A stretch of DNA of 35,246 nucleotides from Candidatus Ornithomonoglobus merdipullorum (GTDB lineage Bacteria; Bacillota; Clostridia; UBA1381): NCBI GenBank assembly GCA_018714695.1, contig DVNB01000023.1, positions 1 to 35,246 of the forward strand, given 5' to 3'. Position 1 is the stretch's first letter, and each line of letters starts with the position of its first letter. The notes below the pieces were generated by a model, which searched no databases, was not told the origin of the DNA, and saw only the letters and a program-made list of their open reading frames with translations. This document shows, one piece after another, positions 9,246 to 22,051 of the stretch. A program made the translations under genes and the position numbers.

Positions 9246-10187
9246 CTTTTCCCCGCATGCGCGGGGGTGATCCAACGTCCGATGCCCGGGAAGTACAATA
9301 CGCTTACTTTTCCCCGCATGCGCGGGGGTGATCCACGTGTATAAAAAAATGCCCCGTCATTAACGGGCTTTTCCCCGCATGCGCGGGGGTGATCCCTTCC
9401 GCTGCACTCAGTCTCAGGGACACGTCAGCTTTTCCCCGCATGCGCGGGGGTGATCCTAATAGAAACCATAGGAAATACTATAAAAACCGCTTTTCCCCGC
9501 ATGCGCGGGGGTGATCCTTCAGCCCCTCTGCCCGTCCGCTTACCTTATACCTTTTCCCCGCATGCGCGGGGGTGATCCCATTGTCTTTTTCCATTCTGTA
9601 CATGACCGCGCCTTTTCCCCGCATGCGCGGGGGTGATCCCCTGTTCCGCAAATTCTCTTACTGTAAATATTTCTTTTCCCCGCATGCGCGGGGGTGATCC
9701 TCGCCCTCGTATCTGTTGTTAAAAATATAGTTGCTTTTCCCCGCATGCGCGGGGGTGATCCTTCGTGATTCACGGAGGCCAAGAAAGTATTGTACTTTTC
9801 CCCGCATGCGCGGGGGTGATCCTCAGCGTGATACCTTTGCGCGCAAACGTGTCTACTTTTCCCTGCATGCGCGGGGGTGATCCTATATCGCATACGTCAT
9901 CATACTTGATATTTGCCTTTTCCCCGCATGCGCGGGGGTGATCCTGGCGCTTGTCAATACGATTACCGAGGCGCTTGCTTTTCCCCGCATGCGCGGGGGT
10001 GATCCCAGATGTCTCGCGTCAAATGCCGTAGCTACTGACTTTTCCCCGCATGCGCGGGGGTGATCCCTGTTTATCAAGTTACTTAGCCAGATAAAAGTTC
10101 TTTTCCCCGCATGCGCGGGGGTGATCCTGTTTCCTTTACAGCGTTTTTTAGCTTCATCATCTTTTCCCCGCATACGCGGGGTGATTC
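9246..10187 (+). CRISPR. CRISPR array 1, type I-E, 16 repeats / 15 spacers
   Basis: Repeats of 28 bp recur every 61 bp without exception, with 33-bp intervals (32-bp spacer plus one PAM-derived base by analogy with E. coli). Each repeat has a CTTTT flank, a 6-bp stem CCCCGC/GCGGGG, an ATGC tetraloop, and a GTGATCC 3' tag that would form the crRNA 5' handle. The repeat at 9856 has a C-to-T change in the stem. The last (10161-10187) is degenerate and one base short, marking the trailer end, so transcription runs on the + strand. No duplicated spacers were noticed. Confidence 0.99.
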
Positions 10188-10259
10188 ATCTGCGCATATG
10201 GGACAGGCGCTTTAAAAAATCTATGAGAAATTTTATTCATGCATATTGATTAAATATAT

Positions 10260-10294
10260 AATATTAAAAATAAAAGAAAATTATTGACAAATAA
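10260..10294 (+). promoter_or_regulatory. Candidate Cascade target overlapping promoter P1 (PAM + pseudo-protospacer)
   Basis: AAT at 10260-10262 is followed by ATTAAAAATAA (10263-10273), identical to the first 11 bases of the pseudo-spacer at 10365. Over the first 17 positions, 15 match. A 32-bp footprint would end at 10294 and cover the -35 box of P1. The -1 base T agrees with the most common PAM-derived base in the arrays. The target role is inferred. Confidence 0.6.
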
Positions 10295-10312
10295 CAGTAG
10301 TAATGGTATAAT
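10284..10312 (+). promoter_or_regulatory. Consensus promoter P1 for the crRNA-like element
   Basis: A perfect TTGACA (10284-10289), a 17-bp spacer, and a perfect TATAAT (10307-10312) with TGG extended -10. Transcription would start near 10319, just before the pseudo-repeat unit at 10336. It may also read into cas3. Confidence 0.85.
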
Positions 10313-10318
10313 ATACAC

Positions 10319-10390
10319 ATGGTTTGATATAAGCTATATTCCTTGCATAAGCAAGGGTGCTCCGATTAAAAATAATAGAGATCAAACCAT
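10319..10390 (+). repeat. 10-bp inverted repeat bracketing pseudo-repeat 1
   Basis: ATGGTTTGAT (10319-10328) and its exact reverse complement ATCAAACCAT (10381-10390) enclose the first pseudo-repeat. The right arm is inside the pseudo-spacer and the left arm lies at the predicted P1 start site. In RNA this would give an outer stem around the crRNA-like hairpin. Confidence 0.65.
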
Positions 10391-10424
10391 ATTCTTCTTA
10401 TCCCTGCGTAAGCAGGGGGAATTG
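10336..10424 (+). ncRNA. CreR/CreA-like degenerate mini-CRISPR (crRNA mimic)
   Basis: Two 28-bp pseudo-repeats (10336-10363 and 10397-10424) flank a 33-bp pseudo-spacer, so they sit exactly 61 bp apart, the period of the real arrays. They match the array-1 repeat at 19 and 18 of 28 positions. The stem changes are compensated: CCCCGC/GCGGGG becomes CCTTGC/GCAAGG in the first and CCCTGC/GCAGGG in the second, with loops ATAA and GTAA. The first ends GTGCTCC, close to the genuine handle GTGATCC. The element lies between P1 and cas3, on the same strand as the arrays. CRISPR-repeat-like RNAs that guide Cascade to promoters (CreA in CreTA modules; CreR cas-regulating RNAs) are known. Cas6e processing and Cascade loading here are inferred. 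Confidence 0.8.
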
Positions 10425-10468
10425 TTTATGGTGCTGTGTGGCAAAAAATAGCTGATAGCACCATAAAC
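10424..10468 (+). promoter_or_regulatory. 12-bp perfect inverted repeat in the cas3 leader
   Basis: GTTTATGGTGCT (10424-10435) and AGCACCATAAAC (10457-10468) are perfect reverse complements across a 21-bp loop. There is no adjacent T-tract, so it is not a normal intrinsic terminator. It could be an operator, an attenuator between P1 and cas3, or a processing structure. It starts at the last base of pseudo-repeat 2. Confidence 0.7.
10428..10451 (+). CDS. Possible mini-ORF (7 codons) in the cas3 leader
   Basis: ATG at 10428 encodes MVLCGKK and then TAG. Its only RBS-like sequence is the G-run of pseudo-repeat 2 (AGGGGG), about 8 bp upstream. It overlaps the left arm of the 12-bp inverted repeat. 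It could be a leader peptide or a CreT-like mini-toxin, or simply chance. Confidence 0.25.
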   Translation: MVLCGKK

Positions 10469-10500
10469 ATCCCTGTTGATCAGTTATTGAAAACTTTTTC

Positions 10501-10529
10501 TTTACTCTGTAAATGAACGGTGTTATAAT
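10501..10529 (+). promoter_or_regulatory. Promoter P2 of the cas operon
   Basis: TTTACT (10501-10506), a 17-bp spacer, and TATAAT (10524-10529) with TGT extended -10. It lies 23 bp before the cas3 ATG, leaving room for the purine-rich RBS GGAAGGAAGGTGGGAG. Confidence 0.7.
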
Positions 10530-10552
10530 AAAAAAGGAAGGAAGGTGGGAGA

Positions 10553-13234
10553 ATGAAGCTTTTTTTGTCAAAGCCTTTGAAGTATATGATCGCAAAGTCA
10601 GACAGACGGGATCGTAACGGTTGGCTGCCGTTTTATATCCATGCGCTCGACACTGCGGCTATAATAAAGCGGCTGATAAAACATTATGGATTAGACAGAT
10701 CATGGAAATTTATTTGTAACATGGATCGGGACGCATTTATCAAAACTGTGATATTGATAGCGCTTTTGCATGATATAGGCAAGCTGACACCGGCGTTTCA
10801 GCATTTGATCACGTTTTCGCTGCCATCTGATTTTAGATATGACGGTATACCGTATACGGATGATTTTGCGAATAGAAGCGCTTCGCATCACACTGTTGCC
10901 GGAGAATGTGTCCTTATCAAATTGGGGTTGTCAAAGGAATTGTCGTCAATAGTGGGTGCTCACCACGGAATGACGCCGGAAAACGGTGTGTGCAAAAAAA
11001 ATATTGATGCATATCCCGATAATTATTTCGGAGAACCTCAAGATGAAGAGTTTTGGATGAGCATTTGGAAGGAATGGCTTGAATTCTCATTGAAGATGGC
11101 GGGTTTTGGCTCTGCAAAAGATGTGCCGGTGCCTGATAAAAAAACACAGGTCTTGATCTCCGGACTTCTGATAACTGCCGATTGGCTTGCGAGTGACAGC
11201 AGCAAATTTCCACTGCTTGACCTTGATGAACTGCCGTCTGATGAATATGATGAAGGACGTGCGGATAAGGCTTGGGGAGAGATAGGGCTTACGGAGCCAT
11301 GGACATCGGATGTGTATATTGCAGATGATGATATTTTTGAGGAACGTTTCGGATTTTATCCGAATAAGGTACAAAAGTTTGTACTCGATGTCGTGAATAT
11401 GGCGGAAAGACCTGGTATAATGATACTCGAAGCTCCGATGGGATGCGGTAAGACAGAGGCGGCTCTTATGGCGGCGGAAGTGTTTGCCGAAAAGAACGAC
11501 AAGCACGGTGTGTTTTTCGGTTTGCCGACGCAAACCACCGCAAACGGTATATTTGAGCGTTTCAAAGAGTGGGCTGAAGGACAGTCTGAAGAATTTTATC
11601 ACAGCCTGATCCTTGCTCATGCCAATGCGGGTTTTCAGCCTGCTTTTGAAAATATGCCGAAACGTATGCCTGACGTTGATGAAGATCCCGAAAGCGGGCT
11701 TATAGTGCATCCGTTTTTCATGGGCAGGAAGATGTCATGCATGTCTGATTTTGTTGTGGGAACTGTAGATAGAATGCTTATGGCCGCGTTAAAGCGCAGG
11801 CATACTATGCTCCTGCATTTTGGTCTGTCTCAGAAGGTGGTCATTATAGATGAGTGTCATGCTTATGACGCATATATGAACCGTTATCTTGAAAGATCTA
11901 TCGAATGGCTCAGCGCATACGGTGTTCCCGTGATACTTTTGTCGGCAACTCTTCCGCCTTCGAGGCGAAGAGCTTTGGTATCGGCGTATACAGGTGAAAA
12001 CCCTGAAAATATAACATTTGAAAATGAGACGGCATATCCTGCGGTGACATGGTCGGACGGCGGGAAAACATACAGCAGATCCATTGCGTATGATCATCCA
12101 AATAAAAATGTGATAGTCGATCAAATGAGTGAAGACAAGGCTGTTTTGGAAGCGGTTGCTGCCTCGGAGGCGGGAGCATGCGTCGGCATCATCTGCAACA
12201 CTGTAAGGAAAGCACAGAAGGTATCAGAGATCATAGAGAAGCACAGGGGGACGGAAAAAATGATCCTGTACCATGCACAGTACATAATGCAGGACAGAGC
12301 GGAAAAAGAGGATCGGATACTTAAATCTGCGGGGAAAAAATCAGGCCCGGCTGACCGGAGAGGGCTTATCATAGTTGGCACGCAGGTGCTGGAACAGTCT
12401 CTCGATATAGATTTTGATCTGCTCATAACGGAGCTTTGCCCGATGGATCTGCTTTTGCAGAGGATAGGCAGGTTGTTCAGACATGACAAGCGGGAAAGAC
12501 CGAATATTTGCAAACAGCCGAAGTGCATCGTTGTGCATTCGGAAGAGGATGGATTTGACAAGGGTTCAGATGCTGTTTACGGCAGATGGCTGCTAATGCA
12601 GACAGAAAAATATCTGCCTGATAAAATAGAAGTGCCGGATGACATATCACGGCTTGTAAGCAACGTGTATGAAAAATGCAGTACAGATACAGAAGCGGAA
12701 AAGAAGGCATATAGAGAGTATTGCAATAGTGTTGGAACAAAGAAAAGCCATGCCGGAGGGTATCTGCTCGGTTCAGCAAAAGGATCCAGAAGGGATCGAA
12801 CGCTTGACGGATGGTTGGCTCAGGGAGTCAAGGATGCAAAGGCTGAAGCATCGGTCCGGGATGGCGATCCTTCGATAGAAGTGCTTTTGATGGTCTCCGA
12901 CGGAGACGGCTATGCGAGTTTTTTGCCGTGGCGGTCGGATGGAGAGAAGATACCTATGTTTGAATGTCCGCCGGACGATGTGTGCAAAAAAATAGCTATG
13001 CAGAGGCTGAAGCTTCCCGGCGCGCTCTGTAATGAATATGTTATAGATGATACGATAGAAGAATTGGAAACCGGAGATAAGATGCTCAAGGCATGGCAGG
13101 ACTCGCGCTGGCTGAGCGGTGAGCTTGTGCTGTTTATGGATAGGGGATTGACGGCGCGATTGAATGGATTTGTTTTGAAATATTCACTGGAAAAAGGTTT
13201 GTCGTATGAACGTTTAAAGGAGGGAGAAGATTGA
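10553..13234 (+). CDS. cas3: Cas3 nuclease-helicase (type I-E)
   Basis: The protein has 893 residues, the normal length for a one-piece type I-E Cas3. The N-terminal HD nuclease has H30 and the H73-D74 pair (ALLHDIGKLTPAFQ). The superfamily-2 helicase follows: Walker A GCGKT with K300, DECH box 433-436, an SAT motif in LLSATLPPSRR, and motifs V/VI in GTQVLEQSLDID and QRIGRLFRH. An accessory C-terminal domain ends the protein. Cas3 is recruited by target-bound Cascade and nicks, unwinds and degrades the non-target strand. The ATG at 10553 follows a purine-rich RBS. The gene heads the cas operon, and its stop overlaps the cse1 start by 4 bp. No inactivating change was seen in the motifs. Confidence 0.97.
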   Translation: MKLFLSKPLKYMIAKSDRRDRNGWLPFYIHALDTAAIIKRLIKHYGLDRSWKFICNMDRDAFIKTVILIALLHDIGKLTPAFQHLITFSLPSDFRYDGIPYTDDFANRSASHHTVAGECVLIKLGLSKELSSIVGAHHGMTPENGVCKKNIDAYPDNYFGEPQDEEFWMSIWKEWLEFSLKMAGFGSAKDVPVPDKKTQVLISGLLITADWLASDSSKFPLLDLDELPSDEYDEGRADKAWGEIGLTEPWTSDVYIADDDIFEERFGFYPNKVQKFVLDVVNMAERPGIMILEAPMGCGKTEAALMAAEVFAEKNDKHGVFFGLPTQTTANGIFERFKEWAEGQSEEFYHSLILAHANAGFQPAFENMPKRMPDVDEDPESGLIVHPFFMGRKMSCMSDFVVGTVDRMLMAALKRRHTMLLHFGLSQKVVIIDECHAYDAYMNRYLERSIEWLSAYGVPVILLSATLPPSRRRALVSAYTGENPENITFENETAYPAVTWSDGGKTYSRSIAYDHPNKNVIVDQMSEDKAVLEAVAASEAGACVGIICNTVRKAQKVSEIIEKHRGTEKMILYHAQYIMQDRAEKEDRILKSAGKKSGPADRRGLIIVGTQVLEQSLDIDFDLLITELCPMDLLLQRIGRLFRHDKRERPNICKQPKCIVVHSEEDGFDKGSDAVYGRWLLMQTEKYLPDKIEVPDDISRLVSNVYEKCSTDTEAEKKAYREYCNSVGTKKSHAGGYLLGSAKGSRRDRTLDGWLAQGVKDAKAEASVRDGDPSIEVLLMVSDGDGYASFLPWRSDGEKIPMFECPPDDVCKKIAMQRLKLPGALCNEYVIDDTIEELETGDKMLKAWQDSRWLSGELVLFMDRGLTARLNGFVLKYSLEKGLSYERLKEGED

Positions 13235-14883
13235 AGGATACAGAATTTAACTTGATCGATGAAAGGTGGATACGAGTGATCGATAAAAAATGTGATATTG
13301 CGGAACTGTCATTGAATGAATTGTTTCGTGACGCGCATTTATATGCTGATCTTTGCGGAGAACTGCCGACTCAGGATATTGCTGTCATGAGGATATTGCT
13401 TGCAATACTGCATACGGTCATTGCAAGATATACTCCTGAGGGAGATCGCGTCGATACCGAGACGGCGGATGATGCGATAGACAGATGGAAGGATATATGG
13501 GACAATGGTTCTTTTCCGAGCGGAGTGATAGATAAATACCTTGATTCGGTCAAAGACAGGTTTTGGCTGTTCCATCCCGTGTATCCGTTTATGCAGGAAC
13601 CGTTAGCGAAATATGGTACAAAATATACGGCATCAAAGCTCAACGGCGAGCTTTCGGAGAGCAATAATAAAGATCGCCTTTTTCGTATGTTTTCAGGGAA
13701 AGACAAAGATATACTGACAATGCCGCAGGCGGCACGCTGGCTGCTTTATGTAAATGCATTCGATGACACATCGGCAAAACCATCGTCTTTGTCACGCTCA
13801 AGGAAGATCAAGTATGATTCTCCCGGAGCCGGATGGCTGGGTAAACTTGGACTGATAACATTGCGGGGTAGAAATTTGTTTGAAACGCTGATGTTGAATC
13901 TTGTGATCCCCGCTGACAGAGAAGATGCAGAGGTGAATCGGCAGACTCCCTCTTGGGAGCGGGAGAGATATATCCCTGATGATGCAGAAGATGTTTGCAT
14001 AGAACGTGTGGAGAGAGTAAGGATCGTGCAGCCGGATAATCTTGCAGAATTGTATACACTGCAGTCAAGACGGATATTGCTTGAACGCAATGAGGATGGA
14101 ATAACAGGATGCAGTTTGCTCGGAGGAGAATTTTTTGAGCGTGAAAACGCGTTCATTGAACCTATGACTGTTTGGAGAGACAGCGGGAATAAAAAGAAGG
14201 ATATATATACGCCAAGACGTCATGATCCGTCAAAACAGTTCTGGCGTGAGTTTGCGTCAGTGTATCCGGAAAGCGATACGACCCATAGGAGGCCCGGCGT
14301 AATATCGTGGTTTGCCCTGCTGATGGACTATGAGCTTATTCCCGATGGATACAGACTGGATACAAGGATATGTTCGGTGCAGTACGGTGACAAAGACTTT
14401 TTTGTAACAGATGTGTTTTCAGATTCTCTTTCCATGAGCGGAGAGCTTATCTCTGAAATGGCGCTTCCCTGGCAGGCGTGCGTAACTGAATCGATAATGA
14501 TAACAGACCGTGTGGCAGATGTTTTAGGTAAGCTTGCAAGGGAAATATTCCTGGCGGGCGGCGGTGATACGGAATCGGCGTCGACAAGTGTTAGAAAAGC
14601 AAAAGCTGAATATTATTTTGACGCGGATGAAGAATTCAGAAAGTGGCTTGCGGGGATCGATCCGGGCGCGGATAGAGTGGTCGAAAAAAAAAGAGACTGG
14701 CAAGAAAAAGCGATGAAGCTTGCCGCAAATTTGGGAAGAAAGATGGTGAATGAGGCCGGAGCCGGTGCGATAATAGGGAGAGTTGTAAATATAAATGATA
14801 ATGAGATAATGTTTTCCGCTGCGAAAGCAGAAAATAATTTTTACTATAGACTGGCACAGATAAAGGGAAGGGAGGTGCGATAA
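13231..14883 (+). CDS. casA: Cse1/CasA (Cas8e), Cascade large subunit
   Basis: The protein has 550 residues. It begins with TTG at 13231, overlapping the cas3 TGA (TTGA), behind a strong AAAGGAGGG; the start is not ATG but is supported by that RBS and by FNLIDERWIRV (residues 6-16), the conserved Cse1 opening. FWLFHPVYPFMQEP near residue 110 is also typical of the family. As the large subunit of the type I-E surveillance complex, it recognises the PAM, helps open the target duplex, and recruits Cas3. Residues contacting the PAM cannot be assigned by eye. The gene is followed after one base by cse2, consistent with coupled translation. Confidence 0.95.
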   Translation: MKDTEFNLIDERWIRVIDKKCDIAELSLNELFRDAHLYADLCGELPTQDIAVMRILLAILHTVIARYTPEGDRVDTETADDAIDRWKDIWDNGSFPSGVIDKYLDSVKDRFWLFHPVYPFMQEPLAKYGTKYTASKLNGELSESNNKDRLFRMFSGKDKDILTMPQAARWLLYVNAFDDTSAKPSSLSRSRKIKYDSPGAGWLGKLGLITLRGRNLFETLMLNLVIPADREDAEVNRQTPSWERERYIPDDAEDVCIERVERVRIVQPDNLAELYTLQSRRILLERNEDGITGCSLLGGEFFERENAFIEPMTVWRDSGNKKKDIYTPRRHDPSKQFWREFASVYPESDTTHRRPGVISWFALLMDYELIPDGYRLDTRICSVQYGDKDFFVTDVFSDSLSMSGELISEMALPWQACVTESIMITDRVADVLGKLAREIFLAGGGDTESASTSVRKAKAEYYFDADEEFRKWLAGIDPGADRVVEKKRDWQEKAMKLAANLGRKMVNEAGAGAIIGRVVNINDNEIMFSAAKAENNFYYRLAQIKGREVR

Positions 14884-14884
14884 C

Positions 14885-15487
14885 ATGGGAAGACCATGGA
14901 ATGAAATATATGGTTATGTGAAAAGCAGAGTAGAAATACTTGGAGCTGATCTTGACAGCAGCAGAACGAAGGCAGAGCTGGCCAATCTGAGGCGGGGAAT
15001 AGGAAAAACGCCCGGTGAGGACCCGAAACTTTGGGGTAGCTTTTTGCTTGATCTCCCGAAAGAGCTTGAAAAAGATGCTGAACACAGGACCGAGCCTACT
15101 TTTGCGGAATGGGCAGCGTATACCGCGCTTGCATTGTATGCGCTTCACCAGCAGGGGAATGACGAGACTGTGAATTGTTCAGACGGCTCGGCGGCGCTTG
15201 GGAGAGCTATAAGAAAACTTGTGCATTCGAAAGATGATGAAGAACGCATTATGCGAAGATTTTCGGCGATGGCGACATCGGCTGGACCGGCTGAGCTTGC
15301 TCATCATCTGCGCTCTATAATACAGTTATTGAGAGCGGAAAAGGTGAAGCTTGATTATGCTGATCTGGCGCGAGATCTGTATCTGTATCAGCTGCCGGAC
15401 GGAAAGAACAGCGTGCGTCTGAAATGGGGACGTGACTATTACAGAGAAGAAAAAACAAATAACGAGTTAAAAGAAGGAGAGGAATAA
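14885..15487 (+). CDS. casB: Cse2/CasB (Cas11e), Cascade small subunit
   Basis: The protein has 200 residues and is mostly helical, within the usual Cse2 range. The C-terminal segment HHLRSIIQLLRAEKVKLDYADLARDLYLYQL matches the conserved Cse2 tail in spirit (key features: LL, LDYAxLAxDL). In type I-E Cascade two copies form the inner belly that stabilises the R-loop. The ATG at 14885 follows GGGAGGTG. It lies one base after the cse1 stop and one base before cas7, in a fixed I-E gene order that supports the call where sequence conservation is low. Confidence 0.93.
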   Translation: MGRPWNEIYGYVKSRVEILGADLDSSRTKAELANLRRGIGKTPGEDPKLWGSFLLDLPKELEKDAEHRTEPTFAEWAAYTALALYALHQQGNDETVNCSDGSAALGRAIRKLVHSKDDEERIMRRFSAMATSAGPAELAHHLRSIIQLLRAEKVKLDYADLARDLYLYQLPDGKNSVRLKWGRDYYREEKTNNELKEGEE

Positions 15488-15488
15488 G

Positions 15489-16580
15489 ATGAACAATTTT
15501 TATATCGATATTCATATAATTCAGACAGTGCCTCCGAGCTGTATCAACAGAGATGACACGGGCAGTCCGAAAACGGCAGTGTATGGAGGAAAAACGAGGG
15601 CGAGAGTCTCTTCACAGGCGTGGAAGCATGCGGTGAGGCTTATGTTCAGAGATATATTTGACCAAGAGCTTCTCGGTGACCGCACAAAGCGTGTGACAGA
15701 GATGGTGGTAAAGCATATCAAGGCTGTTGACTCGGCTATAGATGACGCTAAAGCTGAAAAGCTTGCGCTGGACGCATGCAAAGCGGCCGGTATTTCTATG
15801 GATAAGAAGAAGGAGCAGCAGTCCGATGTTCTTATGTTTATAAGCAATGCACAGGCGCGTGAGATAGCAAGGCTGGCGGTTGAGAAAAATAACGGAGCTG
15901 ATGTGAGCGGCAATGATTTCAAGGCGGCTTTGAGGGCGCGCCCGTCTGTGGATATGGCGCTGTTCGGAAGGATGGTGGCGTCAGACCCGTCTCTCAATTA
16001 TGATGCCGCGGCGCAGGTGGCGCACAGCATCTCAACACACACGGTGCATAATGAATATGATTATTTCACTGCTGTTGATGACCTTTCTCCGGAAGATAAT
16101 GCGGGCGCCGGACATCTCGGAACGGTAGAGTATAATTCGGCGACACTTTACCGTTATGCAACAGTAAACGTAAATGAATTATGCAAAGATCTTGGCAATG
16201 ATATTGCAGTAAAGACGGTTAAGGGATTTGTTGGATCGCTTGTCAGATCAATGCCCACGGGAAAGCAAAACACGTTTGCAAACAGGACTTATCCGGATTA
16301 TGTGTATGTTACGGTCAGGAACGATCAGCCCGCAAACCTGTCAGGCGCTTTTGAAAAACCTGTAACGGCAAAAGACGAAGGTTATGTTAAAGGATCAATT
16401 GAGGCTCTTTCAAAATATTCCGGTGAGGTGTATAAAAATTATGCGTCAGCTCCCGCTGTATCATGGGATGTAGGCGCATCGTCAATAGGCGCCGCGGACG
16501 AGCATGTGACGTTCAAAGAATTATTAGACAAACTTGAAACGTATATGATGCAAAGACTCAGTGAAACCGAGGTGATGTAA
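15489..16580 (+). CDS. casC: Cas7e/CasC, Cascade backbone subunit
   Basis: The protein has 363 residues. It opens with an RRM-like strand (FYIDIHIIQTVPPSCINRD), then KTAVYGGKTRARVSSQAWKHAVR (about 28-50), the hallmark region of type I-E Cas7 that contacts crRNA. Six copies form the helical backbone of Cascade along the crRNA spacer. AAAAGAAGGAGAGG lies immediately before the ATG. It sits between cse2 and cas5 with one-base gaps, so equal co-expression is likely, although the complex needs several copies per complex. Confidence 0.97.
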   Translation: MNNFYIDIHIIQTVPPSCINRDDTGSPKTAVYGGKTRARVSSQAWKHAVRLMFRDIFDQELLGDRTKRVTEMVVKHIKAVDSAIDDAKAEKLALDACKAAGISMDKKKEQQSDVLMFISNAQAREIARLAVEKNNGADVSGNDFKAALRARPSVDMALFGRMVASDPSLNYDAAAQVAHSISTHTVHNEYDYFTAVDDLSPEDNAGAGHLGTVEYNSATLYRYATVNVNELCKDLGNDIAVKTVKGFVGSLVRSMPTGKQNTFANRTYPDYVYVTVRNDQPANLSGAFEKPVTAKDEGYVKGSIEALSKYSGEVYKNYASAPAVSWDVGASSIGAADEHVTFKELLDKLETYMMQRLSETEVM

Positions 16581-16581
16581 A

Positions 16582-17235
16582 ATGCCTACATTGCTGCTTA
16601 GGCTTGCAGGACCGCTGCAGTCATGGGGTGTCGGTTCGAAGTTTGAGATAAGGCTGACGGAAAATGAGCCTACAAAGAGCGGCGTGATAGGTATGATCGC
16701 AGCCGCGCTTGGAAGACGGCGTGATGAGCCGATCGATGATCTGGCGTCAATGAAGTTTGGCGTGAGGGTGGACAGACCGGGAGTACTGTTAAGAGATTTT
16801 CATACAGCGAAGCTTGTAAAGACAGCAAAAAAGACGGAGTCATATGTGACATACAGATATTATTTGTCGGATGCTGTGTTCCTTGCGGGACTTGAAAGTG
16901 ATGACAGAGATCTTTTAGCTAAAATAGAATATGCTCTTAAAAATCCTGTTTTTCCGCTGTTTCTCGGAAGAAGATCGTGTCCTCCCACGCTGCCGATAGT
17001 TTGGGGGATGCGTGAATGTTCCATTCTTGACGCGTTAAAGGATGAAGCTCCGCTTGTGGAAGGGGCTGATAAAATGCGTGTAAGATATGATTCATCGTCA
17101 GGGAGCGCAATGAAGCGTGATATGCCGATCTCATTTGATGTACGGCACAGGAAATACGGCTATAGGTATGAGGCGGAGGATTGGGTATCGTTTGGATCAT
17201 TGGATGAAGAGCATGACCCTATGGCAGAATTGTGA
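16582..17235 (+). CDS. casD: Cas5e/CasD, Cascade 5'-handle-binding subunit
   Basis: The protein has 217 residues. The N-terminal RRM motif LLLRLAGPLQSWG (4-16) and PTKSGVIGMIAAALGR (30-45) are diagnostic for Cas5e. It caps the Cascade backbone and binds the 8-nt 5' handle of the crRNA, which here would read GUGAUCC plus one base. The ATG begins one base after the cas7 stop. The C-terminal region (DVRHRKYGYRYEAEDWV) fits the family. It is separated from cas6e by 10 bp. Confidence 0.96.
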   Translation: MPTLLLRLAGPLQSWGVGSKFEIRLTENEPTKSGVIGMIAAALGRRRDEPIDDLASMKFGVRVDRPGVLLRDFHTAKLVKTAKKTESYVTYRYYLSDAVFLAGLESDDRDLLAKIEYALKNPVFPLFLGRRSCPPTLPIVWGMRECSILDALKDEAPLVEGADKMRVRYDSSSGSAMKRDMPISFDVRHRKYGYRYEAEDWVSFGSLDEEHDPMAEL

Positions 17236-17245
17236 GGTGATAGAG

Positions 17246-17887
17246 ATGTATTTGTCAAGAGTGATGTTGAATCTGAACAAGCGCGATACGATAAAGGCGC
17301 TCGCTTCATCGGCAATTTTTCACGGGGCTGTTGAATCGGCATTTGAAGGTGAGAAAAAGAGAAGACTTTGGAGAATTGACACGTTGCGTGGAAAACGGTA
17401 TATACTGATCTTGAGTGAGGACGTTCCCAATCTTGACGGGTTTGCGGCGCAGTTCGGGTATGCGGGAGAATATGAGACAAAAAATTACGACTCCTTGCTT
17501 GAACGTATCGAAAACGGCAGCGTATGGAGATTCAGGCTTACCGCTAATCCTACGTATGCAAAGTCGGATGGGACCGGTGATAAACGCGGAAAGGTAAAGG
17601 CTCACAGGACAGAGGAGCATCAGCGTGAATGGCTGATCAGAAAGGCAGATCAAAATGGTTTTTCTGTAAGCAACAATGATTTTTCTGTGAATGGAGCCGA
17701 ATTTCTTAGGTTCAGAAAAAGGGACAACGGTAATTCACGTATGGTAAACATGATATCCGTTACATATGACGGCGTGCTTCATGTTACGGACAAGGAAAGA
17801 TTTAAAAGGGCGCTTTGCTGCGGAATAGGGCGCGAAAAAGCATACGGTATGGGTTTATTGACTGTCATGAGGGCTTCAAATGGCTGA
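17246..17887 (+). CDS. casE: Cas6e/CasE crRNA-processing endoribonuclease
   Basis: The protein has 213 residues from ATG 17246, preceded by GAGGTGAT. The frame is open 129 bp further upstream inside cas5, but the MYLSRVMLNL start is the conserved one. H26 in AIFHGAVESAF is at the position of the catalytic His known in T. thermophilus Cas6e. The C-terminal glycine-rich loop GIGREKAYGMGLL is intact. It cleaves the pre-crRNA at the 3' base of the repeat hairpin and stays bound to it. In this locus it must accept stems with ATGC or GCAT loops, and perhaps the pseudo-repeat stems near cas3. It overlaps cas1 by 8 bp. Confidence 0.96.
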   Translation: MYLSRVMLNLNKRDTIKALASSAIFHGAVESAFEGEKKRRLWRIDTLRGKRYILILSEDVPNLDGFAAQFGYAGEYETKNYDSLLERIENGSVWRFRLTANPTYAKSDGTGDKRGKVKAHRTEEHQREWLIRKADQNGFSVSNNDFSVNGAEFLRFRKRDNGNSRMVNMISVTYDGVLHVTDKERFKRALCCGIGREKAYGMGLLTVMRASNG

Positions 17888-18920
17888 TAATTATGGTATG
17901 ATAAAACCGGAGCTTGAGCTTTTGCCGCAGATAAAAGATAGGATGACATTTATTTATCTTGAACGCTGTAGGATAAGTCGGAATGACAGTGCTATAAAGG
18001 TCATAGACGATACCGGTATTGTGCATATTCCGGCGGCGTATATTACAGTTCTGCTTTTGGGACCGGGAACTGACATTTCACATAGGGCTATAGAGCTGAT
18101 AGGCGACAGCGGTGTTAGTATAGTGTGGATAGGAGAGCATGGAGTACGATATTATGCGCATGGAAGAGCCCTTAATGCCCATACAAGACTGCTTGTGAAG
18201 CAGGCAGAGCTTGTCAGCAATACGCGGAAGCATCTTGCTGTTGTTCGCAAAATGTACATGATGAGATTTGGTGATTCTGAAGATATAAGCCGACTAAGCC
18301 TGCAGCAGCTAAGAGGAAGAGAAGGAAGCCGTATGCGCATGGAATACAGGAAGTATTCAAAAAAGTATGGTGTTCCGTGGAGTGGACGTAATTATGACCC
18401 GAATGATTTTCAAGCCGGTGATCCTGTAAATCAAGCATTATCGACAGGGAATGTGTGTCTTTATGGCTTGGCGCATGCCGTTATTTCTGCCTTGGGTTGC
18501 AGTGCCGGACTTGGATTTATACATGTGGGACATGAGTGGTCTTTTGCATACGATGTGGCGGATCTGTATAAAACCGAAACGACTATTCCGATAGCTTTTG
18601 AGATGGCGGCGGAGCTGCAGAAGGATGGCAAAAAACCGTCAAGTGAGTTTGCAGGGAAGGTGCGCAGACGCGTTAGAGATAAAATAGTAGATATTCATCT
18701 TTTAGAGAAAATGGTATCGGATATAAAATATCTTCTTTTGGATGAGGATGCGAATACTGAGAATGAATCTGTATATTTGTGGGACAATCTTAAAGGGGTC
18801 GTCGCAAACGGGATACAATATCGTGAGTACGGTAAAGAAAATGAGTCAGATGATGAGTTTGATTTTGCTGAGTATGACGATGATGCGGAGGATAGTGATG
18901 ATAGTAATAACGATGAATAA
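17880..18920 (+). CDS. cas1: Cas1 integrase (type I-E) with acidic C-terminal tail
   Basis: The protein has 346 residues. Metal-binding residues E148 (LRGREGSR), H215 (FIHVGHEW) and D228 (VADLYK) have the same 67- and 13-residue spacing as E. coli Cas1 E141, H208 and D221. It forms the spacer-integration complex with Cas2. Unusually, the last 25 or so residues are a low-complexity acidic tail (ESDDEFDFAEYDDD and onward) beyond the normal I-E Cas1 end. Part of this tail is encoded by DNA that overlaps the cas2 start by 23 bp. It follows cas6e with an 8-bp overlap. No cas4 is present, as usual for I-E. Confidence 0.97.
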   Translation: MADNYGMIKPELELLPQIKDRMTFIYLERCRISRNDSAIKVIDDTGIVHIPAAYITVLLLGPGTDISHRAIELIGDSGVSIVWIGEHGVRYYAHGRALNAHTRLLVKQAELVSNTRKHLAVVRKMYMMRFGDSEDISRLSLQQLRGREGSRMRMEYRKYSKKYGVPWSGRNYDPNDFQAGDPVNQALSTGNVCLYGLAHAVISALGCSAGLGFIHVGHEWSFAYDVADLYKTETTIPIAFEMAAELQKDGKKPSSEFAGKVRRRVRDKIVDIHLLEKMVSDIKYLLLDEDANTENESVYLWDNLKGVVANGIQYREYGKENESDDEFDFAEYDDDAEDSDDSNNDE

Positions 18921-19782
18921 CTGTCCTCCAAAATTAAGAGGAGATCTGTCAAAATGGTTGTTCGAAATAAATACAGGAGTATTTGTAGGTCATGTAAATG
19001 CGCGTGTAAGGGAGAAGCTTTGGGATAGAATATGTGAAAATATAGACACCGGTCAGGCTGCTATGGTGTACAGTGCAAAAAATGAACAGCACATGGAATT
19101 TCGCATACACAATTCGTCATGGGAGCCGACCGATTTTGACGGGCTTACTTTGATAAAGCGACCGCTTCCCGTTGTGAAGCGCAAGCCACAGAAAAAAGAG
19201 GAGGAGCTTGAACCCGGATTCAGCAAAGTGGCAAAAAGACAGATGGGGCGAAGGAGGAGAATGCGAAGTGAAGGAGAGAGCAAAAAATATGCATTTCTCG
19301 ATATAGAGACGACGGGACTGGATAAAGAATCCGATGAAATAATTGAGATCGGTGTGATCTGTACAGATGAAAAGACGATCACGGAACGTTGGAGCGCTGT
19401 CGTGATACCGCAAAGGAATATACCCGATTCCATAATAAAGCTTACAGGCATAGATGACAAAATGATTGAGCATGAAGGAATAACGCTTGATGAAGCGTTG
19501 AGAACATTAAACGATAAGATATGTGACAGAGTTACGGTTATTTACAATGCTCCTTTTGATATGGCTTTTCTGCGTCGGGCAGAGGCTGTAACAGGGCGCA
19601 GTATTCATTTTAAAAAGGTGATCGATGCGCTGTCTGTGGCAAGAAAACGAGTGGATACTGTGCCTGATTACAAACTGGAAACCGTAGCAGAGTATCTGGA
19701 TGTCAGTGCGAAGGGACATCATAGAGCGTTGGATGATTGCGAAATTTTATGCAGGGCGTATTTCAAACTGAATGAATTTTGA
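18898..19782 (+). CDS. cas2: Cas2 fused to a DnaQ-like DEDDh exonuclease
   Basis: The protein has 294 residues from ATG 18898. The open frame extends upstream, but MIVITMNNCPPKLRGDL is the conserved I-E Cas2 start. Cas2 (about 1-95; KWLFEINTGVFVGHV) is joined by a basic linker (about 96-128, including GRRRRMR) to a 3'-5' exonuclease domain. Its motifs are complete: D135 and E137 (DIETTG), D221 (NAPFD), H275 and D280 (HxAxxD). Fusions of this kind are known in some type I-E systems, including S. thermophilus, where the DnaQ domain promotes spacer integration, probably by trimming prespacer 3' ends. Standalone DnaQ enzymes do this in E. coli. The last codons (FKLNEF) are also the start of the array 2 leader. 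Confidence 0.96.
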   Translation: MIVITMNNCPPKLRGDLSKWLFEINTGVFVGHVNARVREKLWDRICENIDTGQAAMVYSAKNEQHMEFRIHNSSWEPTDFDGLTLIKRPLPVVKRKPQKKEEELEPGFSKVAKRQMGRRRRMRSEGESKKYAFLDIETTGLDKESDEIIEIGVICTDEKTITERWSAVVIPQRNIPDSIIKLTGIDDKMIEHEGITLDEALRTLNDKICDRVTVIYNAPFDMAFLRRAEAVTGRSIHFKKVIDALSVARKRVDTVPDYKLETVAEYLDVSAKGHHRALDDCEILCRAYFKLNEF

Positions 19783-19825: not shown

Positions 19826-22051
19826 CTTTTCCCCGCGCATGCGGGGGTGATCCTATGCTGATGTCTACAACATCCGAAACGGATGGCTTTTCCCCGCGCA
19901 TGCGGGGGTGATCCTTTTTCCGATCTGTGCAAATTGCACAAAATTGCCTTTTCCCCGCGCATGCGGGGGTGATCCGGCACAAAGCAAGTAAAGAAGTATC
20001 AGGAAAAACTTTTCCCCGCGCATGCGGGGGTGATCCTATAACACAATAGTCGAGCTGATAGCGGATATCCTTTTCCCCGCGCATGCGGGGGTGATCCCCC
20101 TAACGCCTGTCGAATGGCGTTGGCTGTCGCCTTTTCCCCGCGCATGCGGGGGTGATCCTTTTCTGCCGCTAATGCGAGTTACCGTGTGCTAACTTTTCCC
20201 CGCGCATGCGGGGGTGATCCGTGGGGCTGCCACTGATCTTGCCGGACTGGGCACTTTTCCCCGCGCATGCGGGGGTGATCCTTTTTTTAAAAAAGTTTTT
20301 TGAGATAATCACAGACTTTTCCCCGCGCATGCGGGGGTGATCCTCAGCGAATAAGTGCTTTGCTCCGACAGTTAGGCTTTTCCCCGCGCATGCGGGGGTG
20401 ATCCTAGCAGCAACAAGCGCTGTTATACCGGTAGCAACTTTTCCCCGCGCATGCGGGGGTGATCCCGCCACAACGCGCAAGCAGGGTTTTGTCATACTCT
20501 TTTCCCCGCGCATGCGGGGGTGATCCTAGCCGCTAGTAATAAGAAACAAGGGCGGAAGCCTTTTCCCCGCGCATGCGGGGGTGATCCCCTATCTGTGGTA
20601 TAATAATAGTGAAGTTAAGGCTTTTCCCCGCGCATGCGGGGGTGATCCTACGATGGTATCCGCTGGACGGATATCATCGGACTTTTCCCCGCGCATGCGG
20701 GGGTGATCCTAAAAAATTTTAGGAGGTATAAAAAGATGACTGCTTTTCCCCGCGCATGCGGGGGTGATCCTAAGTTCGTCGAGGGTGCTCGGCTCTTCGA
20801 TTTCTTTTCCCCGCGCATGCGGGGGTGATCCCGGAGTGGGCGAGACTTGCGGTACAGTGGGCAGCTTTTCCCCGCGCATGCGGGGGTGATCCTGTATGTA
20901 TGGAAAATGGGACAAGGTTTGAGTGCTTTTCCCCGCGCATGCGGGGGTGATCCGACAACGGATGGAGCGGCATCGGCTACCATTACCTTTTCCCCGCGCA
21001 TGCGGGGGTGATCCGTGTGCTATTATATAAGTGTCTTAAAGATAGACCTTTTCCCCGCGCATGCGGGGGTGATCCTAAAACAAGCGTTGGGTTTAGAATA
21101 AGTGAGGGCTTTTCCCCGCGCATGCGGGGGTGATCCTCAGCTGTTCACCAACAGCGGAACATACTTTAACTTTTCCCCGCGCATGCGGGGGTGATCCCAT
21201 CTCACTAATGAAATAGTTTTCATTGGTATGCTTTTCCCCGCGCATGCGGGGGTGATCCTTGTAGTTCTTACACCACGATTCGGATAACAAACTTTTCCCC
21301 GCGCATGCGGGGGTGATCCTATGATAATAACTGCTTAGCGCGTGTAGTATTTCTTTTCCCCGCGCATGCGGGGGTGATCCCAGGATATCCCCGGAAGGAC
21401 TTATCCAACTTGCCTTTTCCCCGCGCATGCGGGGGTGATCCTGGGATGGGAACAAATCGAAGAAAAACCAGCCACTTTTCCCCGCGCATGCGGGGGTGAT
21501 CCTAACGAGAACAAATCTCGGTGACGGTGAATGTGCTTTTCCCCGCGCATGCGGGGGTGATCCTGTCATAGTTACCTTCGGCGCATATGCCGATCGCTTT
21601 TCCCCGCGCATGCGGGGGTGATCCCGAAACCGAAAGAACCCGACCGCTTCAAGATCGCTTTTCCCCGCGCATGCGGGGGTGATCCCTCGTGGGGCGGTAA
21701 GCTACAACCGCCCATATACTTTTCCCCGCGCATGCGGGGGTGATCCTGTGTCAGCTATCATGGACACGATGCCGTTAAACTTTTCCCCGCGCATGCGGGG
21801 GTGATCCTATGGGGCGAGAATGCTTATCATCAAGAATAAACTTTTCCCCGCGCATGCGGGGGTGATCCCCGCACTTGAAGACCATTATAATCGATGTAAA
21901 GCTTTTCCCCGCGCATGCGGGGGTGATCCTGAAGTCCTTGCTTGATGAGGGTATGACAGACGCTTTTCCCCGCGCATGCGGGGGTGATCCTCAGGCTCTT
22001 TCTCATGCTTATGCAAGAAGTTCCTTTTCCCCGCGCATGAAGGGGTAAGCG
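19826..22051 (+). CRISPR. CRISPR array 2, type I-E, 37 repeats / 36 spacers
   Basis: The 28-bp repeats have the same CTTTT flank, CCCCGC/GCGGGG stem and GTGATCC tag as array 1, but the tetraloop is GCAT. Period is 61 bp except after the repeats at 20131 and 20254, where intervals are 34 bp. Internal repeats looked identical on inspection. The last repeat (22024-22051) has a broken stem (GAAGGGG) and tag, marking the trailer. The leader is therefore at the cas2 side and transcription is on the + strand. Spacer first bases are mostly T or C. Confidence 0.99.

Follow-up and report, generated by a model that had tools for sequence, protein, structure and literature searches.

A probable type I-E CreR directed at the promoter in front of cas3 in Candidatus Ornithomonoglobus merdipullorum

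Introduction

How does a CRISPR-Cas system hold its own expression in check? One described answer is the CreR (cas-regulating RNA), originally reported in 'Widespread RNA-based cas regulation...' (Cell Host & Microbe, 2023). This report is cited in PMC13131331, PMC12737573 and PMC12948488. According to the first of these, autorepression in types I-B, I-E and V-A works through CreRs with partial complementarity to a promoter (PMC13131331), and the other two present a model in which CreR senses crRNAs and anti-CRISPRs (PMC12737573, PMC12948488). The other close relative is CreA, the guide RNA of the haloarchaeal CreTA toxin-antitoxin systems. As described in PMC8501985, CreA needs pairing at seed positions 1–5 and 7–11, positions 6 and 12 being dispensable (a flipped-base rule given there for type I-B), and together with Cascade represses the operon's own promoter.

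Here, we followed up a degenerate mini-CRISPR in a 35,246-nt stretch of Candidatus Ornithomonoglobus merdipullorum (GCA_018714695.1, contig DVNB01000023.1, positions 1–35,246, forward strand), hereafter the window. An initial annotation had read the element as a CreA/CreR-type RNA, an interpretation that the comparative evidence below supports. We consider it very likely that the element is a type I-E CreR through which Cascade, by limited seed pairing, represses the promoter feeding cas3.

Results

A degenerate mini-CRISPR between array 1 and cas3

The type I-E system of the window looks complete, with cas3, cse1, cse2, cas7, cas5, cas6e, cas1 and a Cas2-exonuclease fusion recognized by Pfam. 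In the latter, Cas2 is joined to a DnaQ-like exonuclease domain (18742–19782; Cas_Cas2CT1978 plus RNase_T). Array 1 (9246–10186) lies before the cas genes and array 2 starts at 19826 behind them (noted through 22000), both built of 28-nt repeats with a period of 61 nt. The two repeats are identical except for their centre, ATGC versus GCAT between CCCCGC and GCGGGG, and the last repeat of array 1 is degenerate.

The mini-CRISPR sits in the gap separating array 1 from cas3 (Table 1). Its pseudo-repeats had been reported to match the real repeat at 19 and 18 of 28 positions and to lie 61 bp apart, which is correct to the base. Once the array regions are set aside, no other ungapped site in the window comes as close to the array-1 repeat (the runner-up has 17/28). 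Compared with the array-2 repeat, the pseudo-repeats score 18 and 19, a value of 18 being shared by two unrelated sites. The distance from stem to stem is exactly 61, and both stems (CCTTGC/GCAAGG and CCCTGC/GCAGGG, as against CCCCGC/GCGGGG in the real repeats) are wholly Watson-Crick. The geometry of the spacer had likewise been recognized, but its length of 33 bp included the eighth base of the handle; the guide has 32 nt. Cleavage is thus predicted to yield an RNA of standard crRNA shape, in which 8 nt of handle, 32 nt of guide and 21 nt of the second pseudo-repeat (10397–10417) add up to 61 nt. A canonical array has near-identical repeats and a foreign-derived spacer; here, the repeats match at 19/28 and 18/28 and the spacer matches the system's own promoter.

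Table 1. Features of the element, its target and the neighbouring cas genes
Feature	Position	Strand	Remarks
AAT PAM of the CreR target	10260–10262	+	Precedes protospacer; pyrimidine as last base agrees with first bases of array spacers
Protospacer of the CreR guide	10263–10294	+	Matches at 1–11, 13–15 and 17, then scattered; −35 at positions 22–27
Promoter P1	10284–10312	+	TTGACA-17-TATAAT, 12/12 sigma-70, TG before −10; promoter scan
Pseudo-repeat 1	10336–10363	+	19/28 versus array-1 repeat; stem 10341–10346 / 10351–10356
Predicted 5′ handle of mature RNA, GTGCTCCG	10357–10364	+	Position equals GTGATCC+N of real repeats
Predicted mature 61-nt CreR	10357–10417	+	Predicted from geometry
32-nt guide (pseudo-spacer)	10365–10396	+	Register after 8-nt handle
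Pseudo-repeat 2	10397–10424	+	18/28 versus array-1 repeat; stem 10402–10407 / 10412–10417
Candidate second promoter P2 near cas3	10501–10529	+	10/12; promoter scan; not matched by the guide
cas3, first gene of type I-E operon	10553–13234	+	Pfam Cas3_HD, Cas3-like_C_2, Cas3_C
cse1, cse2, cas7, cas5, cas6e (Cascade)	13231–17887	+	Pfam

The perfect consensus promoter seen earlier just upstream of the element was recovered by our promoter scan (P1). Folding of 10319–10475 gave −61.8 kcal/mol as compared to −34.0 ± 3.8 for shuffled sequences, a large share of which comes from a separate hairpin at 10424–10468. This strong hairpin without a T run adjoins pseudo-repeat 2 and is formed by a perfect 12-base inverted repeat (GTTTATGGTGCT...AGCACCATAAAC); the assembly holds no second full copy of it (just chance matches of 14–20 bp), and nothing of its type was seen on reading the related loci L012 and L013 (see below). 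A perfect 10-base inverted repeat further joins the expected transcript start (10319–10328) to the 3′ half of the guide (10381–10390), enclosing pseudo-repeat 1. Rfam returned nothing at E ≤ 1 for 10190–10560.

The guide matches the element's own promoter

What does the RNA aim at? The initial annotation gave no target. We find it in the promoter of the element itself. Over the last 600 bases ahead of cas3, both strands considered, the guide matches best at 10263–10294, whether or not a PAM is required. The matched part (10263–10277) lies just upstream of the P1 −35, with position 12 mismatched. The seed run of the guide in these 600 bases is 13, as compared to 3–7, and once 9, for the window's 47 real spacers. 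Throughout the 2.65-Mb assembly (86% complete), the PAM-plus-seed pattern occurs once on the forward strand, never on the reverse strand and never in a reversed control. Dinucleotide-shuffled seeds reached the score of the real seed 3 times per 1000 in the window when an AAY flank was required (0, 5 and 5 in L012, L013 and L025), and 9 times when it was not (0, 11 and 92, respectively). Since the −35 falls within protospacer positions 22–27, bound Cascade would cover it.

In type I-E systems, the first base of a spacer derives from the PAM. Among the 47 spacers of the window's arrays, this base is T in 27, C in 14, G in 4 and A in 2 (pyrimidine in 41/47). As searches of viral contigs with three spacer 22-mers found no protospacer, our PAM call rests on these first bases together with the CreR targets.

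Guide and target change together in close relatives

A close cas3 (E ≤ 1e-60) is present in 3 of the 95 genomes of the order, the own genome included. The two relatives, G048 (locus L012, 70% cas3 identity) and G050 (L013, 62%), form family f1 with the window. In both, the element occupies the corresponding position and has pseudo-repeats, a 61-nt spacing of their 3′ ends and a guide of different sequence. Their promoters score 11/12 (TTGACA-17-TATTAT or TATATT). The guide of each locus finds its match next to an AAT PAM in that locus's own promoter region, and throughout f1 the −35 lies at protospacer position 22. Guide and target have changed together across f1. The compensated stem changes had previously been taken as the sign of selection; the pairing is real, but this is the weaker part of the case, co-variation of guide and target being the stronger. 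Loss of stems or spacing in relatives had also been proposed as a refutation, and both are kept in L012, L013 and L025.

Searching the DNA of the own genus matched 8 of 16 genomes, the own included; the other seven shared only 34–60 bp of AT-rich promoter stretch and no whole pseudo-repeat. A further contig scan returned one distant cas3 (L021), where the element is absent, and a class-level search around G124 gave no cas3 genomes beyond those already found.

A scan of cas3 loci reveals a patchy distribution

In a wider scan, candidate guides were those preceded by a TG[AC]TCC handle (or a hairpin), and a match required that the guide seed agree with AAN-flanked DNA ahead of cas3 in at least 9/10 of positions 1–5/7–11. 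Weak or partial matches (L014–L020, L054) and loci in the same places as others (L077 and L081, as L026 and L030) were excluded beforehand. From 69 loci entered, 63 were scored, six being dropped for masked N (L024, L030) or too little upstream DNA (L031, L032, L041, L055); the 63 include distant Cas3 relatives (L050–L053, 33–35% identity) that may belong to other subtypes.

Handle-bearing guide matches were found in 9 of the 63 loci, and in eight of these the full ten-base seed lies behind AAT (4) or AAC (4): all three testable f1 loci and five of the 33 from family f34 (L025, L072, L075, L088, L098). The scan also listed one hairpin-only match (L075) and one second site (L025). Twenty rounds with shuffled seeds gave 17 chance matches, that is, 0.85 per round over all loci for handle and hairpin guides together. 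With the PAM requirement lifted, the longest seed run still sits behind an AA PAM in 7/7 loci; a chance handle in L096 has a seed run of 10 without PAM. The distribution is patchy, as no match occurred in 27/27 testable loci outside f1 and f34, nor in 27/33 of f34. L094 and L093 carry few-spacer arrays with near-canonical repeats directly before cas3, which show no promoter match (seed runs ≤ 7).

The ninth locus, L099 (G861, f34), is uncertain. It matches at 9/10 seed positions, being mismatched at the first base, and also matches at position 12. Its spacing is 49, not 61, its seed match lies close to its own −10, and its guide is possibly shortened. In L098, the stem of pseudo-repeat 1 is not clean, and the guide and its target also make up an RNA hairpin. 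On reading of the sequence, both loci look self-targeting.

In the seven full-seed loci other than L098, 12 of the 14 pseudo-repeats (pseudo-repeat 1 of L013 and of L088, which have a bulge or short loop, being omitted) contain 66 Watson-Crick pairs, 5 G-T pairs and 1 mismatch among 72 stem pairs.

The conserved pairing follows the seed

For the same seven loci (L098 came to light later), the guides agree with their own targets at 12–14 of 15 scored positions, and with the targets of the other loci at 5.7 on average and 10 at most (7 × 7 matrix). Positions 1–5, 7–11, 13 and 14 match in 7/7 loci, position 6 in 5/7, position 12 in 0/7, and positions 15, 16 and 17 in 5, 3 and 2; because the scan itself selected the ten seed positions, the independent evidence is confined to 6, 12, 13 onward (13–15) and the PAM. 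Positions 18–32 match at chance level (28/105; own mean 4.0, versus 4.6 for targets of other loci). In I-E Cascade, the bases at 6, 12, 18 and so on are flipped out. Position 12 is mismatched in 8/8 full-seed loci, L098 included, which departs only mildly from neutrality (~0.05, from a chance match rate of ~0.31).

Which promoter feeds cas3?

In L012 and L013, the equivalent of P1 is the sole forward promoter-like site found (1170–1560 in both), and our scans detected no forward promoter-like or terminator-like site between element and cas3. Either P1 must therefore feed cas3 in these relatives, or their cas3 promoter is far from consensus; with nothing found in between, P1 most likely makes both CreR and cas mRNA in f1. 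The window itself leaves room for a second reading, owing to P2 (10/12), our chief reservation, and a weak terminator-like site that overlaps pseudo-repeat 2. Here, CreR would control P1 only, as a self-limiting guide RNA, with P2 mainly driving cas3 and cas expression being little affected. P2 has a TG before its −10 and lies 23 bp from the cas3 start, and the next-best guide site in the stretch containing it has a seed run of just 5; shuffled versions of this stretch hold 2.1 ± 1.3 promoter-like sites. The clean interval between element and cas3 in both relatives speaks against this reading, as do four f34 guides (L025, L072, L075, L088), whose targets lie at or within ~15 bp of a promoter-like stretch (9–11 of 12) nearer cas3, and we deem it unlikely.

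In these four f34 loci, CreR is probably a separate unit acting on the cas promoter. Pseudo-repeat 2 is followed by a T run in L088 and by a terminator-like hairpin in L072. The L088 pseudo-repeat 2 (reverse strand, 4378–4363) is itself a terminator-like hairpin with a T run, which fits the idea put forward in PMC8501985 that a terminator can substitute for pseudo-repeat 2.

Might the mini-CRISPR instead be the antitoxin guide of a CreTA module, restraining a small RNA toxin? CreA likewise combines two degenerate repeats with this seed rule and a target at its own promoter, and a 7-codon ATG frame starts at 10428 behind pseudo-repeat 2. However, a creT in front of the element does not fit, because pseudo-repeat 1 follows the expected P1 start (~10319) after only ~17 nt. 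Moreover, the interval from the −10 to cas3 contains 1, 4 and 6 ATG frames of at least three codons in the window, L012 and L013, none alike across the three (GTG and TTG frames were left aside, and creT genes are tiny and divergent). We thus give a toxin-antitoxin module very little credence. That the element is the remnant of a dying array with a spacer matching the chromosome by chance, an autoimmune fossil, would suit degenerate repeats next to array 1 with its equally degenerate final repeat, but is scarcely believable given that other genera show this layout, PAM and seed match with guides of unrelated sequence and that the stems remain paired.

The non-targeting half of the guide may fold back

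The guide's 3′ half folds onto handle and seed in L012, L025 and L075, and into a hairpin within the guide in L013. In the window it pairs with the transcript 5′ end through the 10-base inverted repeat described above (p = 0.007 for the full leader, 0.25 for handle and guide alone). Shuffling positions 18–32 alone gave p ≤ 0.05 for 4/7 CreRs as compared to 10/87 real spacers (rank test, p = 0.0016), a pattern that was noticed after the fact and serves as a lead only. The same test gave no signal in L098 (0.23) and L099 (0.38). The non-targeting half may perhaps have been selected to fold onto handle or seed. If true, CreR would be a deliberately weak competitor, ceding Cascade to real crRNAs.

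Discussion

Since the guide matches the promoter before the cas genes rather than a virus, the CRISPR system most likely turns itself down through its mini-CRISPR. Element anatomy, guide-target match, PAM and co-variation between genomes are observed directly; from these, the following circuit can be proposed. P1 would transcribe the mini-CRISPR and, a strong terminator lacking in between, probably the cas3-Cascade operon as well. Cas6e would cut both pseudo-repeats, and the resulting 61-nt crRNA-like RNA would load into Cascade. Guided to AAT and 10263–10294 by ~15 paired bases on the seed side, the complex would cover the P1 −35 and block RNA polymerase, the pairing presumably being too short for licensing Cas3 cutting. 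More Cascade should then mean more repression, and extra canonical crRNA or a Cascade-disabling anti-CRISPR should bring relief.

Going further, the f1 repressor guide might be released from the 5′ leader of the same cas mRNA that it represses, the four f34 guides might be separate units (two with clear terminator-like sites), and CreR might be weakened by fold-back; this combined picture is tentative, and we rather doubt that it holds in full. If the f1 reading is true, every cas transcript bears one copy of its own repressor, and f1 and f34 represent two circuit designs for one control.

The element would be a compact natural example of Cascade as a transcription repressor, and could serve to model how CRISPR systems keep autoimmunity down and respond to anti-CRISPRs. 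Sequence comparison by itself brings out the kept pairing (1–5, 7–11, 13–14), the unkept position 12 and the placement of the −35 at 22, and the rule of handle, seed and PAM before cas3 finds such elements with few chance matches.

How does the locus compare with known systems? The initial annotation suggested that the element was undescribed, which is true of this locus only; as PMC13131331 mentions I-E CreRs as known, the kind is established and the locus new. It is a new example with unusually good comparative support, in which the rule of pairing stands out with rare clarity. From a canonical type I-E array, whose 61-nt unit, stem-loop and handle it shares, it differs by its degenerate repeats, single spacer and guide against a host promoter. 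With the CreA of type I-B CreTA in haloarchaea, as described in PMC8501985, it has in common two degenerate, divergent pseudo-repeats, an 8-nt 5′ handle, the 1–5 plus 7–11 seed, an adjacent PAM and a design in which the own promoter is repressed with Cascade; it differs from CreA in that no toxin gene was seen, in its subtype (I-E), in an AAT instead of a TTC PAM and in pairing that continues through 13–15. The closest likeness is to CreR, for which subtype I-E is listed: a mini-CRISPR with degenerate repeats beside a cas operon that includes cas6e and the Cascade genes, a predicted crRNA-like RNA, and partial complementarity, by PAM and limited seed match, to a promoter that would feed cas3, with guide and target co-varying between genomes (7 × 7 matrix; 8/63 full-seed loci).
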